Source of the DNA: Chitinophagales bacterium
Lineage (GTDB): Bacteria > Bacteroidota > Bacteroidia > Chitinophagales > JADJOU01
DNA length: 33,473 nucleotides
Assembly: GCA_025455685.1 (NCBI GenBank)
Contig: JALOMB010000011.1
Coordinates: forward strand, 1-33,473
Direction: 5' to 3'
The notes below the pieces were generated by a model, which searched no databases, was not told the DNA's origin, and saw nothing but the letters and a program-made list of their open reading frames with translations. The position numbers and the translations under genes were made by a program. Positions 11,037 to 33,473 of the stretch are shown here, in pieces. The first letter of the stretch is position 1. The number at the start of each line of letters is the position of its first letter.

Positions 11037-12347
11037 TCACTGCTCTATGAATCGCTCAAATATTGCTCGATATGGTCGCCAAATGGCTGTCTTTAGGTTT
11101 GAGTTATGCCATAGAAATACAAAATTTCCGTTGTATTTCTTAGTTTCCAAGATGATTTGTTCTGATTTTTTCCAGAATTCATTAGGATTTATTTTGGGAT
11201 AATAGCCATCTACGGCAATTTCCATAAGACATAAAGGAAAAATTCTCAACATAGTTTTTTGATTGGCTCGAATATCAAACCAAGGATAGTCGTAGCATAT
11301 ACCACTGCGAAAGCCGATATGATGATGATACCCTAAACTATAATCTTCTGAAATGTCTTGAGAAATGGCGTCCTGATAAGTATTGGGAAATGTAATTTTG
11401 AGGAAATGAGCCCTCATTTTTTTAGGTTTGGGTTGAAATTTCTCTAGTTGAAGTTCTAATGAATGATTGCGAGCGAGATGAAGTCCAATGTCGTGGTGTC
11501 GACCTATCCCCTCCATTTGTGCTTGCACCTCAGGATGAGACAGTTCATAAGTCGCGTTTGCTGCGTCGTGGATAGGCAAAAAGAAAAAAATTCCTTCCAA
11601 TCCATTTGTTTTGAACATATCTGCCATTTCTTCCAAGCAGTCATAAGGGTCTTTTTTATTTTTGAAATATTGAATTTTATCTTTGATTAAGTCCCAGACC
11701 AAGGATAATCTAGCATTTTTAAATAGATATCCTATTTCTTTGAGACCACTAGTACTTTTGAGGTATTTGTGTCGCATATCTACATCTACCGTAGGTATAA
11801 CGCTAAACGACCTTAGATTTTTTGATGGTAACCCGAAATGTTTGAAGCAGTTTTCAACTAAAGTCATATAAATATTGACCCAAGGTTTTTCATGGAGCTT
11901 GTGTTTGATTAAAAATTGTTGGTCTTCATCTACTCTTTCATAAGCATCTCTTGATAGAAAATATTCCTCAATTCGTGTCAAGAAGAAGAAAATTGACCCA
12001 AAAATATCTATAGGGCAATGAATTTCTTTTTCCTTTACATCAAAATGCCTATCCATAGCGTATAATCCTATAATTTCTTCTTGGGTAAATGGATTTGTAT
12101 AAGATTTCGGATTTTGGGGTTGCAATTCATCCCAAAGAATTTGGTGGAATGTTTTAGGATATCGCTCGAAGAATATATCAGGCATAAACATAGTTTTATC
12201 TTCAAATTTCAAGAAAATTTCTTTTGCCTCGTGGATATGAATGGTGTATGAAATATCTAGGATTTCTGAAAAGCAGTAATCCCAAACATATTGCTTGGCA
12301 GAGAGATGAGAAGCTTGAGTCCAAATTTCAATTGTGTTTATAGCCAT
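11037..12347 (-). CDS. polysaccharide-deacetylase-like protein (DUF7033 type N terminus)
   Basis: 436 residues. It resembles Bacteroidota proteins with a DUF7033-like N-terminal half and a carbohydrate-esterase-4/polysaccharide-deacetylase-like C-terminal half. Key sites: TVDVDMRHKY (186-195), where the Asp pair and His recall the metal-binding DD/H of CE4; HHDIGLHLA (284-292), matching the H-x-x-H-like second metal motif; GYHHHIGFRSGICYDYPWFD (339-358), matching the conserved FR-G-D region; and FLWHNSN (411-417), near the last catalytic His. No signal peptide, so the protein is likely cytoplasmic. Its first 10 bases overlap the end of the acyltransferase gene, so the two are probably co-translated and act on the same product. 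Likely role: editing of a surface polysaccharide or its precursor; substrate unknown. Confidence 0.72.
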   Translation of the reverse strand: MAINTIEIWTQASHLSAKQYVWDYCFSEILDISYTIHIHEAKEIFLKFEDKTMFMPDIFFERYPKTFHQILWDELQPQNPKSYTNPFTQEEIIGLYAMDRHFDVKEKEIHCPIDIFGSIFFFLTRIEEYFLSRDAYERVDEDQQFLIKHKLHEKPWVNIYMTLVENCFKHFGLPSKNLRSFSVIPTVDVDMRHKYLKSTSGLKEIGYLFKNARLSLVWDLIKDKIQYFKNKKDPYDCLEEMADMFKTNGLEGIFFFLPIHDAANATYELSHPEVQAQMEGIGRHHDIGLHLARNHSLELQLEKFQPKPKKMRAHFLKITFPNTYQDAISQDISEDYSLGYHHHIGFRSGICYDYPWFDIRANQKTMLRIFPLCLMEIAVDGYYPKINPNEFWKKSEQIILETKKYNGNFVFLWHNSNLKTAIWRPYRAIFERFIEQ

Positions 12348-13138
12348 CTTGATTTAAATCTATACCAAGGATGAATGTTTTGATAGCGGTAAAAGGATTG
12401 TTTTTTATTCGTAAAGTTTTCGTAAAATCGCGCCACGGATTCCACAGAAGAGCCTTCGAAACTAAAATACGTAAACCCTTCTGATTTTAAATATGATAAA
12501 GTTCGCGCTATTAGAGCAGGGTAGCATCCGTTAGGAGATTTAGGATGGTAGCCGCCTACGAAATAATAAGCCTCTGTGTTATAAATAAAAATTAGCAATT
12601 GCGCTTGAATACCTGCTTCATCGTTTAAGCTAAATCCTCGGATATGTTTTTGGTTATTTTGATAGACTTTTTTGATAAAATAGAGTGGTGCAATTTTGCT
12701 GGCTTTATCGCTAAGATAAGGTTCCAAAAAATCTAATTCACTGTTTTCTGCTAAGATTAGCGCTTGATTTTTTTTGATATGCCTTGATAAACTTGATTTG
12801 AAATTCACTTCGTAGTCTTGGGTCAAATCCACAACATAGTTGTATTCTATTCGCTCGTTTTCTAAAGGAAGTTTTTCATGACTTTTGATATCGTAATACT
12901 TGAATTTTTTTAACCAGTCATGAATAGGCTTTAACCAAGATTTATAGTTAGGAGAATCAATAATTGCTTTTTCTTTTTTTAAACCATGAATTCCTGAAAA
13001 GTAAGGCGTATAAATTGTTTTAGGGAAATTCTGAAAATAAGCGACAAATTGTGCTTTCAATTCTATATTTTCTATATAGGCATTATGAAAGAATTGACTA
13101 TTTAGAGAAGTAATAAAATCTGGCTGATAATGAATCAT
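12338..13138 (-). CDS. GNAT/FemAB-like acyltransferase
   Basis: 266 residues. The C-terminal half has the look of a GNAT/FemAB fold: VNFKSSLSRHIKKN (111-124) resembles the family helix with S-x-x-R-R/K-x-I-x-K; AQLLIFIYNTEAYYFVGGY (about 179-197) resembles the strand carrying the acceptor site; and the segment TYFSFEGSSVESVARFYENF near the C terminus matches the F-x-G-S...I/V-x-x-F-Y/F-x-x-F pattern of Bacteroidota acyltransferases. The N-terminal half is less conserved. No membrane segment or signal peptide. It overlaps the following deacetylase-like gene by 10 bases. Its ATG lies 4 bases after a -7 element and the gene follows the tRNA-Arg terminator. The donor (acyl-CoA or aminoacyl-tRNA) cannot be told. 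Confidence 0.62.
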   Translation of the reverse strand: MIHYQPDFITSLNSQFFHNAYIENIELKAQFVAYFQNFPKTIYTPYFSGIHGLKKEKAIIDSPNYKSWLKPIHDWLKKFKYYDIKSHEKLPLENERIEYNYVVDLTQDYEVNFKSSLSRHIKKNQALILAENSELDFLEPYLSDKASKIAPLYFIKKVYQNNQKHIRGFSLNDEAGIQAQLLIFIYNTEAYYFVGGYHPKSPNGCYPALIARTLSYLKSEGFTYFSFEGSSVESVARFYENFTNKKQSFYRYQNIHPWYRFKSRWL

Positions 13139-29421: not shown

Positions 29422-30246
29422 ATGGAAATGCAACCTTATCAAGATGAAATTGATTTAAAAGAACTCGGCAAAAAAGTCGTCAAAGTAACGCAAAACAATA
29501 AAAAACGTTTCACGACTTTGCTTATTATTTGTTTAGGTTTATCTGGACTCTATTTAGCCAAACAAATGATTTGGCCGAAATACAAAAGTGAGTTTGTCGT
29601 GAAGTCTTTTCATATTAGAATGGATCAAATGAAATCTGTAGAAGACTTGATTAATAATTCCATTCAAAGTGAATTGTATCAAGACAAGACACTAGAAAAA
29701 TTAATCATTCAAAATGATTTGAGAAAAATCTCTATTCAAGAGATTAAGCCCGATATTACATCCCTAGACAAAGACGATAAAACCAAATTTTATAGATTTG
29801 AGTTTCTTCATCAATCCAAACCAAAACCAACTAGTATCATCGATTTTGATTCAATTGTCAGTAAAATTAAATTAGTTTATGCCAATAATAACGATATTCT
29901 AGAAGGTAAGCAAAGAGCTTTTGAGGCGTTTACTGAAATCGATTCTTTGGTAGAAATAGCTAAACTAGCAGGGCAAGAATTTAAACAAAGAGCTAATCCA
30001 AATGGTAATATGATGGTGATGAATGATTTATATCAGTCTCTTGGTGGTTTGCTCAATCAAAAAAATGCCTTAAAAAAGGAATACATGAACTATAAAGACG
30101 AAAACTTGCTCTATATAGCCTCACCTGTCGTACAGAGCAAAAAATTGCAAAATCCTTTTATTATTCCCTTAATCGGATTAGCTATTTGGGCACTTCTGTG
30201 TGTATTGATTATAGGCTTTGAGCTAGTGTTCAAAGATATAGAGTGA
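29422..30246 (+). CDS. Wzz-like polysaccharide chain-length protein
   Basis: 274 residues. Inner-membrane protein with a short cytoplasmic N terminus (DEIDLKELGKKV, 8-19), a first membrane segment at about 31-49, a periplasmic part of about 195 residues and a second membrane segment at about 246-267. This two-helix topology is that of polysaccharide co-polymerases (Wzz), which set chain length of O-antigen or capsule. The periplasmic domain starts with WPKYKSEFVVKS (51-62), a typical Wzz-like beta strand, and continues with several helices. No kinase domain or Walker motif is present. The proline-rich segment usual before the second helix is weak (NPFIIP, 244-249). It lies 45 bases before the initiating transferase, with which it probably works. 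Confidence 0.68.
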   Translation: MEMQPYQDEIDLKELGKKVVKVTQNNKKRFTTLLIICLGLSGLYLAKQMIWPKYKSEFVVKSFHIRMDQMKSVEDLINNSIQSELYQDKTLEKLIIQNDLRKISIQEIKPDITSLDKDDKTKFYRFEFLHQSKPKPTSIIDFDSIVSKIKLVYANNNDILEGKQRAFEAFTEIDSLVEIAKLAGQEFKQRANPNGNMMVMNDLYQSLGGLLNQKNALKKEYMNYKDENLLYIASPVVQSKKLQNPFIIPLIGLAIWALLCVLIIGFELVFKDIE

Positions 30247-30291: not shown

Positions 30292-31632
30292 ATGCGATAT
30301 AAGTGGTGGTTTTTTATTGGAAGTTTATTGGGTATATGTATAAGTTCAAGCTTGTCCAATTGGATATATTTTGATAGCCTTTGGGTGGATGGTTGGTCTT
30401 ATCCTTCGCTATTTCTCGTAATTCTCTCCGCTTTTATTTTTAGTTTTTGGGCTTCTGATTTTCATAAAATATCTGCGCAAATCCAGATCTATCAATCGAT
30501 ATCTAGAATATTTGATTTTTTTATTTTGTTTTCTGTCTTTGTAATTTCCTACTGGTTTTGGGTAGATTCTCCATACTATGATGGTAAACATTTGATGACC
30601 TTTTATGGATTATGGGTTTTATTTTTTTTTATTTTTGATAGAGTTTATGTACATTTACTCAGAAAATTTAATATTCATCAAAATCTAAAAACTATTGTCA
30701 TTGTAGATAGAGAAGACGATATTCACTTTTTGAAAAATTATATTGATACTAATCCTTGGTTAGGGTTTAAGGTTTTAAAAATACTGCCCGTGTTTCAAAA
30801 AGAAGATATTTTTCAATTGGCAGAGGAATTCACTATAGATAAAGTTTTATTTAATGTAGATTTGGTGAGTTTTGAGTTGGAATTCAAAGACAAACTTAGG
30901 AAATTGTCAGAAAATAAATTAGTTAAAATGTACGGTTTCAGTGAGCTATACAGTTCTAAAGTCAAACGAGGTTTATTTGAACTGATAGATAAAACGCCTA
31001 TCATTTCTCTATTTGATTATCCTTTGGATTATGCATCCAATCAATTTATCAAACGGTATTTTGACATATTTTTTGCTTTGTTTATGCTGGTTTTTTTCTT
31101 GAGTTGGTTGATGCCGATACTTTCTATACTTATTTATTTTCAGAATAGAGGCCCAATCTTTTATCGTCATGAACGAATAGGTCTAAACAATAAATCTTTT
31201 CGCTGTTGGAAACTTCGCACAATGTACCAAAGTAAAGAATCAGAGCCATTTCAGCAAACTATCAAAAATGATGCTCGTATTTTACCTGTAGGACATTTCA
31301 TCAGAAAAAACAATATAGATGAGTTGCCTCAGTTTATCAATGTATTGCTCGGTGATATGAGTGTGGTAGGGCCTAGACCTATGATGATAGGGCATATCAA
31401 AGAATATGATTTAGAAATAGCCGAAATGTATTCTCGCCATATGATTAAGCCCGGTGTAACGGGACTAGCTCAGGTTTCAGGCTATCGTGGGGAAATAGAT
31501 TCCGTTCAAAAAATGAATGGTAGAATTCGCTTGGATCGCTTTTACATCCACAATTGGACTTTTATTTTAGACTTAAAAATCATTTGGTGGACTATCCGCA
31601 ATATGATTTTTGGTGATGAGCAGGCGATTTGA
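30292..31632 (+). CDS. initiating polyprenyl-phosphate sugar-phosphate transferase (WbaP/WcaJ type)
   Basis: 446 residues. Monotopic phosphoglycosyl transferase that puts the first sugar-1-phosphate on undecaprenyl phosphate to begin exopolysaccharide or O-antigen units. The N-terminal part (about 1-125) has four membrane segments, then a Rossmann-like domain (about 130-215) with TIVIVDREDD. The catalytic domain (253-440) shows IKRYFDIFFALFML, RHERIGLNNKSFRCWKLRTM (292-311), the catalytic Asp-Glu in NNIDELPQF (D343, E344), GDMSVVGPRP (354-363), KPGVTGLAQVSGYRG (386-400) and DRFYIHNW (415-422). Sugar preference (glucose, galactose or other) is not decidable. It lies after the Wzz-like gene and converges on the WecA-ligase fusion with 8 bases between stop codons. 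Confidence 0.93.
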   Translation: MRYKWWFFIGSLLGICISSSLSNWIYFDSLWVDGWSYPSLFLVILSAFIFSFWASDFHKISAQIQIYQSISRIFDFFILFSVFVISYWFWVDSPYYDGKHLMTFYGLWVLFFFIFDRVYVHLLRKFNIHQNLKTIVIVDREDDIHFLKNYIDTNPWLGFKVLKILPVFQKEDIFQLAEEFTIDKVLFNVDLVSFELEFKDKLRKLSENKLVKMYGFSELYSSKVKRGLFELIDKTPIISLFDYPLDYASNQFIKRYFDIFFALFMLVFFLSWLMPILSILIYFQNRGPIFYRHERIGLNNKSFRCWKLRTMYQSKESEPFQQTIKNDARILPVGHFIRKNNIDELPQFINVLLGDMSVVGPRPMMIGHIKEYDLEIAEMYSRHMIKPGVTGLAQVSGYRGEIDSVQKMNGRIRLDRFYIHNWTFILDLKIIWWTIRNMIFGDEQAI

Positions 31633-31640
31633 AATAAGGT

Positions 31641-33473
31641 TTATTCTATTTTTTTTATGATAATTTCGTTTGTTTTGACTCTCAATCTCGACTTGAGGAG
31701 GAAGAGGGAGTTGAAAATAGAAAAAAATACGATGCCAGATTGGTTGGCGAGGGTGGACTCGACCAATGAAAAGATAAGGGTAAGCAATAGAAATCCTTTG
31801 AAAAAATAATCTCTGGAGCGGAAGGCCATATAAAAAGAAAAAATATAGACCCCAAATAGCGCCAATACTCCCAAAATTCCCATTTCCAATAAAAGGTCGA
31901 GCCATTGATTATGGGCATTGGTCCTTGTGCCAGATTCTATAATAACACCATTGTAATTTGGATTTCCAAATAAATAGTCAGTCTTTATGATTGAAAATGC
32001 TTGCTGCCAAGCAGAAACTCTTTTTGACACCTCAACACTTGAACTAAAAATATAATTTGAATCTAATTTATTGAAATCAAAAAATTGAATAAAGAAGAAA
32101 ACACTAAAAAACATAAAAGCATAAAGCGTTTTGGGAAAATTTCTATATTGAGTCCATTGGATGATGGCAGCTACTATATGAATAAGCATCATCACCGCAA
32201 ATCCAATTTTGCTCTGTATCAATAGCATGGATATACCTACAAACAATGAAAATATAAATTGTACCCATTGATTTCTCAAAAGGTGTATTTCCGATTTTCT
32301 CAAATAAATACAGCTCATGAGCGCAAAGTTTAGAAACATTGCGTAGTAAATAGAAGGGATATGGCTCATCGTGAGCAATAAATCTTTAGATAAGAAAAAA
32401 CTTTGATATGCGCTTATTTTTAAAATAAAAATAACAATAGAAAACGTCATAAAGCTAGAGATACCAAGGATATAGAACGATAAAATGCTATACCATTTTT
32501 TTAGATCAAAATAATCTCTTTGGAGAAAAAGTACTACGGGAAAAAGTAGGAAAAGCCAACGTAGTTCTAGTTTTTTAGCTAATATGGAAAATTCTCCCAT
32601 GAAAGAATAATATAAAATACTAGCCCAAAAAATAAGAGAAGGTATCAAAATGTAATATTTGCCTGTTTTGAGGTTTTTGATACGAGAGATTTTGAAACTA
32701 ATCAACCAAAAGATAAAGAAAACTATAATAGGGATACTCGTAGACCATCTTTGGTATGGGAGCGCAAATGCTATAATGGAAAAAAATAAATACCAATTGG
32801 TAGCTACAAACTTCTGGAAATATTTGAAGGTGAGCATATTTTCGCGCTTTGATTTTAGTTTTTTGAGAATAAAAAATTCTAACAAGAAAAATACGAAAAC
32901 AAAAATCCCTGCCAATATTACTATCATCAGCGTATTGCCCAGCTCTTTTTGAAAAATCAAACAAAAAAGAAATATGGCAATATTTCCTACAATGAGCATA
33001 GAAGTAATATGATAGTGCTGAAAATGGAGCCGTAGGAAAAAATGGTGAATGTGCGTTTTGTCGGGAGAAAAAGGTGATTTTTGCTTGAGAATTCGGGCAA
33101 AAGCAACCCTAAAAGTATCAAAGAGTGGAATGAAAAAAAGTGCAATCTGAATACCATACATGGAGTTTATTCCCGCTTTTTGTCTCATATTTGGATTGTC
33201 GGTACTCATTGAGAGCATGAAAAATGCTGCGCACCAGCCTATCAATGTAGAGCCTGTATCGCCGAGGAAGATTTTTGGATTGATGATATTGTATCTAAGA
33301 AATGCTAGAAGCGAAGCTACAAGCGCCAAACAAATCTGCATAAATGCTATATTTCCAGTCTGATAAAAGTAATAGGAAAAGAAACTGAAATAAAGTATCC
33401 CAAGGCTAGCTGCCAATCCATTGACGCCATCTATTAGATTGAGTGCATTGATAAAAAGTATAAAAACAAACAT
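31641..33473 (-). CDS. WecA/MraY-type transferase fused to O-antigen ligase/polymerase (partial, 5' end off window)
   Basis: At least 610 residues in one unbroken reading frame; the Met at the window edge is internal, so the true start and roughly the first hundred residues of domain one are missing. Domain one (1-205 of the visible part) is a polytopic polyprenyl-phosphate sugar-1-phosphate transferase: INALNLIDGVNGLAAS (8-23), INPKIFLGDTGSTLIGW (64-80), PLFDTFRVAFAR (116-127) and DKTHIHHFFLRL (138-149), the WecA-type HIHH. Domain two (about 225-595) has about ten membrane segments and the Wzy_C/WaaL pattern with KRVSAWQQAF (484-493) and NAHNQWLDLLLEMGILG (519-535), H521 being the usual catalytic His. 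An inner Met (M213, base 32837) near the junction could allow separate translation. A fusion of these two steps is unusual; it may act in polysaccharide initiation and export/ligation. Confidence 0.85.
   Translation of the reverse strand: MFVFILFINALNLIDGVNGLAASLGILYFSFFSYYFYQTGNIAFMQICLALVASLLAFLRYNIINPKIFLGDTGSTLIGWCAAFFMLSMSTDNPNMRQKAGINSMYGIQIALFFIPLFDTFRVAFARILKQKSPFSPDKTHIHHFFLRLHFQHYHITSMLIVGNIAIFLFCLIFQKELGNTLMIVILAGIFVFVFFLLEFFILKKLKSKRENMLTFKYFQKFVATNWYLFFSIIAFALPYQRWSTSIPIIVFFIFWLISFKISRIKNLKTGKYYILIPSLIFWASILYYSFMGEFSILAKKLELRWLFLLFPVVLFLQRDYFDLKKWYSILSFYILGISSFMTFSIVIFILKISAYQSFFLSKDLLLTMSHIPSIYYAMFLNFALMSCIYLRKSEIHLLRNQWVQFIFSLFVGISMLLIQSKIGFAVMMLIHIVAAIIQWTQYRNFPKTLYAFMFFSVFFFIQFFDFNKLDSNYIFSSSVEVSKRVSAWQQAFSIIKTDYLFGNPNYNGVIIESGTRTNAHNQWLDLLLEMGILGVLALFGVYIFSFYMAFRSRDYFFKGFLLLTLIFSLVESTLANQSGIVFFSIFNSLFLLKSRLRVKTNEIIIKKIE

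Follow-up and report, generated by a model that had tools for sequence, protein, structure and literature searches.

A WecA-type transferase and a Wzy/WaaL-type protein joined in one reading frame: a rare fusion gene in Chitinophagales

The window, meaning the whole stretch of 33,473 nucleotides that was analysed, corresponds to the full length of contig C26, one of 161 contigs in a draft genome of 2.17 Mb, and its distal end is occupied by a WecA-Wzy/WaaL fusion gene on the reverse strand (31641..33473). Its frame was open for 610 codons, from 33473 to 31644, and was closed by a TAA at 31641-31643; 19 to 66 stops were counted in each of the remaining five frames of the same DNA. Because the window covers the entire contig, the gene is 5'-incomplete: the contig end removes its 5' end and, by comparison with complete homologues, about 140 N-terminal residues, the DD motif among them. 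Pfam models were matched above their curated cut-offs by both parts of the protein, Glycos_transf_4 over residues 1-89 (2.6e-20) and Wzy_C over residues 408-540 (2.6e-11). An earlier note on this DNA had proposed that a WecA/MraY-type transferase and a Wzy/WaaL protein share one frame here. The 610-codon frame, the presence of both Pfam domains and the occurrence of the same join in five genomes confirmed this proposal, and the GDTGS, HIHH and NAHNQWL motifs as well as the basic linker were all found where that note had placed them.

A second copy of the fusion was identified by a family search in genome G005, as a 758-codon open frame that is 50% identical over residues 1-601, and a search of the order yielded three more, in G051 (791 codons), G074 (784 codons) and G030 (778 codons). 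These four copies were full length and free of stops, with both Pfam domains above the cut-offs, and the G051 copy sits inside a contig of 124 kb. Possible objections raised at the outset were a domain search failing one of the two halves and a related genome with a stop or frameshift at the join; Pfam supported both halves, and no such interruption was present in the four other genomes. The domain combination is genuine but rare: a profile built from the five fusions detected it in 5 of 398 genomes of the order (the window's, G005, G051, G074 and G030), distributed over 4 genera and 3 families, namely f1 (window and G005), f5 (G074 and G030, loci L024 and L026) and f22 (G051). Among good-quality genomes of the order, the frequency was 2/352. 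Profile searches revealed no further fusions among 395 genomes of the class and 326 genomes of the phylum. In these searches, as in that of the order, 2 or 3 candidates per genome were fully scored under strict E-value limits, which divergent fusions could escape. Viral contigs scanned with the Wzy half gave no match and plasmid records gave none spanning both halves. Relatives of the WecA half in named loci were from Bacteroidota in 9 of 10 cases.

Two other long frames were considered and set aside. When the Wzy-half profile was applied to 299 genomes of the order and 295 of the class, the only other frame of sufficient length among those listed was that of G241 (L139:3631-6114, 828 codons), which is a different join, of Wzy_C with a Glycos_transf_1 glycosyltransferase, and represents another unusual fusion in its own right. 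A 613-codon frame in L057 consists of a WecA behind about 260 codons lying opposite a gene of the other strand and is not a credible fusion. G005 has another WecA, of which a contig end (L062:7681-7932) preserves the N-terminal 84 residues; these closely resemble the N terminus of the fusion of the same genome.

The N-terminal half of the window protein (32835..33473, reverse strand; residues 1-213) is of the polytopic polyprenyl-phosphate sugar-1-phosphate transferase type. Residue conservation was evaluated on 65 sequences, comprising the five fusions and 60 standalone relatives. The catalytic-type D15 of the NALNLIDG motif (residues 9-16; 33426..33449, reverse strand) and D72 of GDTGS (residues 71-75; 33249..33263, reverse strand) were both present in 65/65 sequences, hence in every fusion, as were the three His of HIHH (residues 141-144; 33042..33053, reverse strand) in 5/5 fusions. 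The DD pair was found in all four complete fusions; in the window copy its position is cut off by the contig end. The motifs of WecA/TagO-type polytopic phosphoglycosyltransferases (PGTs), that is DD, NxxxxxDG, GDTGS or GDNGS, and HxHH, are in this way all accounted for. The second Asp of NLIDGxD was replaced by Asn in 5/5 fusions and in 22/60 standalone relatives. NCBIfam model TIGR02380 matched the window half at 1.4e-24, below its cut-off, and the scores obtained with this model were 87-148 bits against a curated cut-off of 326; judged by these scores, the WecA half is a member of the family and not an equivalog of enterobacterial WecA. A profile of the five sequences matched MraY structures at about 1e-14, and the predicted model of the first half was fair (blocks mostly at 70-90 pLDDT), its best fold match being MraY at a non-significant level. 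The N-terminal half is predicted to transfer sugar-1-phosphate to undecaprenyl phosphate.

The C-terminal half (31644..32834, reverse strand; residues 214-610) belongs to the Wzy/WaaL family, and its profile matched the WaaL structure 7tpg at 7.8e-7 over about 150 residues. We take R191, R265 and H313 of 7tpg to be the catalytic residues of WaaL (2022 structure). In the alignment, along which these numbers were counted, S421-K422 (32208..32213) corresponded to T190-R191, R485 (32019..32021) to R265 and H521 of NAHNQWL (31911..31913) to H313, all on the reverse strand, so that the basic residue, Arg and His of the superfamily are all present in the window copy. Lys at the R191 position is shared by the window fusion and 37/60 standalone relatives, and Arg at the R485 position was found in 65/65 sequences. 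The His was present in 60/60 standalone relatives and in 3/5 fusions, those of the window, G005 and G051, but was replaced by Gln in both f5 fusions (L024 of G074 and L026 of G030, motif NAQNQFLE), which may therefore have an inactive second half. Genome G030 also carries a standalone Wzy, L053, with this His intact, in a locus with Polysacc_synt flippase-type, glycosyltransferase and possibly Wzz-like genes, which suggests a division of labour in f5. The predicted model of the second half, used to evaluate a GT-C fold, reached mostly 40-55 pLDDT and returned no significant fold match.

The two halves are connected by a basic linker (32799..32867, reverse strand; about residues 203-225) that was ungapped between the window and G005 copies, as was the whole of their alignment over residues 1-289. 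Across residues 195-240, amino-acid identity was 57% and identities at the three codon positions were 0.61/0.78/0.37, a pattern that points to selection on the junction as part of one protein. A separate start at Met214 was rejected, as this residue is not conserved and is Gln in G005. The linker was common to all three members of the f5/f22 trio. In the established topologies, the C-terminal end of WecA and the start of Wzy/WaaL proteins are both cytoplasmic, and the loop formed by residues 203-246 contains 8 K/R and 1 D/E; on both grounds, the suggestion that the short linker serves as a cytoplasmic hinge fits.

In a tree of the WecA halves, the five fusions formed one clade (support 96/94). 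In a tree of the Wzy halves they were distributed over two clades, the f1 pair on the one hand and, on the other, the f5/f22 trio together with the standalone L053 (L053:885-2216), the closest relative of the f5/f22 fusion halves; a single Wzy clade of fusions and L053 was not rejected (AU p 0.395). An origin of the fusion in one event and an origin in two are both compatible with these trees. Ahead of the first Wzy helix, L053 has a stretch of 43 residues, with an extra hydrophobic segment in the place expected for the last WecA helix; in the other listed standalone relatives this stretch is no longer than 28 residues. The extension could be what remains of a WecA half that was lost. In genome G205 (L135:436-2694), one TAA is all that separates a WecA-type gene, of another subfamily, from a Wzy gene in the same frame, and this arrangement is a natural pre-fusion layout.

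Within the window, the fusion is convergent with a gene for a WcaJ/EPS-type monotopic initiating transferase (30292..31632, forward strand; PF02397 at 6e-62, TIGR03025 at 1.2e-97, above cut-off), only 8 bases separating the two stop codons. The WcaJ-type gene is preceded by one for a Wzz-like protein of 274 residues with two TM segments (29422..30246, forward strand). This protein had no Pfam or NCBIfam match, but in L152 and L062 its homologues adjoin standalone Wzy genes and Wzx-type genes (Polysacc_synt), and on the basis of these neighbours it is likely a chain-length co-polymerase. The Wzz-like family was conserved in f1 at 40-43% identity; in three f1 genomes without the fusion (G001-G003), the Wzz-like gene is followed by one for a protein of 541-549 residues, with PMT_2 in the two that were scanned. 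An ArnT-like gene faces the fusion in G005. In G051 the fusion adjoins a second Wzy, and the cluster that holds both also comprises a Wzx-like gene, genes of glycosyltransferase type and an ORF of 273 aa with the layout of a Wzz-like protein, whose homology was not proven by BLAST. In the f5 genomes the fusion was found among non-glycan genes of the endonuclease III and HPPD/glyoxalase types. No Wzx flippase was present near the fusion within the window, the contig stopping at the fusion gene itself.

WecA is known to act on the cytoplasmic face of the membrane and Wzy and WaaL on the periplasmic face, with glycosyltransferases and the Wzx flippase operating in between. Against this background, there is roughly an even chance that the gene encodes one bifunctional membrane protein, in which a WecA-type initiator is tethered to a Wzy-type polymerase working with a Wzz-like partner. 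The WecA/TagO-type part would load sugar-1-phosphate onto undecaprenyl phosphate at the cytoplasmic face, and the Wzy-type GT-C part would act at the periplasmic face on the flipped undecaprenyl-diphosphate glycan, most likely polymerising its repeat units with the Wzz-like partner. Through the linker, initiation and polymerisation would be kept in the same location, close to the flippase and the cytoplasmic glycosyltransferases, and in a constant 1:1 ratio. The earlier note had considered that a single protein could channel its substrate. This idea found no support, since one active site faces the cytoplasm and the other the periplasm, elongation and flipping take place in between, and direct channelling is thus unlikely; a fixed location and ratio is the better guess at what might be gained. 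The sequences show the fusion, its conservation and the motifs kept in the window copy, whereas the activities of the halves, the preference for a polymerase and the benefit of tethering are inferred. A narrower form of the same reading, that of a working two-sided enzyme in which a glycan's initiating transferase and its polymerase are held together permanently in one complex, with the Gln copies as a derived regulatory form, is possible but tentative. If true, it would be nature's case of WecA-type initiation physically coupled to Wzy polymerisation across the membrane. Several observations weaken the interpretation as initiator and polymerase: the second initiating enzyme, of WcaJ type, next to the window fusion makes the glycan served ambiguous, the window has no Wzx flippase in the vicinity, although the contig stops at the gene, and the f5 fusions lie amid non-glycan genes and have Gln in place of H521.

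Another explanation, rather unlikely but not negligible, assigns the second half the role of O-antigen ligase (WaaL) or of protein O-oligosaccharyltransferase, transferring the finished glycan to lipid A-core or to protein. In its favour, WaaL 7tpg is the only solved relative of this half, and an O-glycosylation ligase model gives a weak hit to L051, one of the standalone relatives (1.1e-8, below cut-off). Moreover, the f5 fusions are not located in polysaccharide clusters, and the second Wzy beside the G051 fusion could be the polymerase there. On the other hand, the WaaL match is limited to some 150 residues, Wzy and WaaL are not reliably distinguished by sequence, and a polymerase is favoured, short of proof, by the Wzz-like and Wzx-like genes found close to fusions and to related Wzy genes. 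The description of the two halves as the first and last membrane steps of glycan assembly would hold for a ligase, and not for the polymerase preferred here.

It is improbable that a neutral fusion of neighbouring genes took place without functional coupling, the halves working as if apart or being cleaved. In favour of it are the layout in G205, although the WecA there is of another subfamily, and the rare and patchy occurrence of the fusion. It is nevertheless conserved across three families, with an ungapped and constrained junction in the f1 pair and a linker in common in the f5/f22 trio. More doubtful still is the idea that, in some members of the family at least, the second half serves as a scaffold or regulator and is not an active enzyme: the Gln of both f5 fusions at an otherwise invariant His, and the His-bearing standalone L053 of G030, would fit such a role, but the His is kept in the window, G005 and G051 copies and the Arg of R485 in all. 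Finally, an artefact, in which a missed stop, a frameshift, an assembly error or a chimera would have brought two ordinary genes together, can for practical purposes be excluded. Although the gene reaches the end of its contig in a draft assembly, it is whole in four other genomes, in one of them inside a contig of 124 kb, its junction is ungapped and constrained, Met214 is not conserved, and the same type of error would be needed in all five assemblies.

The tethered initiator and polymerase preferred here can be compared with known systems. In all tested active-site motifs, and in its profile match to solved MraY, the fusion resembles the WecA/TagO family, from which it differs by a second enzyme-type domain at the C terminus. 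With the Wzy/WaaL superfamily it shares the Wzy_C domain as well as the Arg and the His at the positions of R265 and H313, but it is fused behind a WecA, has Lys for R191 and, in two fusions, Gln for the His. To our knowledge, there is no bifunctional monotopic PGT (Bi-PGT) with a periplasmic polymerase or ligase. Bi-PGTs, in which an initiating transferase is fused to another functional domain (PMC10942596), are similar in that an initiator carries a further domain, but they are built on the unrelated monotopic fold, and polytopic PGTs were tabulated as 'PGT only' (Table 1, PMC10942596). Searches of open-access papers brought up no earlier description of a fusion of WecA with Wzy or with WaaL. 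The novelty lies in the domain architecture; both families are known, and the fusion does not represent a new kind of enzyme.

The enzymes of Wzx/Wzy pathways, from the initiating transferase and the glycosyltransferases to the flippase and the polymerase, may form a single complex; that an initiating transferase interacts with the chain-length regulator is a published hypothesis for which experimental evidence is lacking (PMC10030265). The fusion, as a natural covalent connection of an initiator to a polymerase or ligase, points to such a complex and offers one protein on which it can be tested.

Elsewhere in the window (11037-13138), a DUF7033 protein lies next to a protein with a weak, below-cut-off match to LPG_synthase_C, and the two are possibly a cell-envelope pair.
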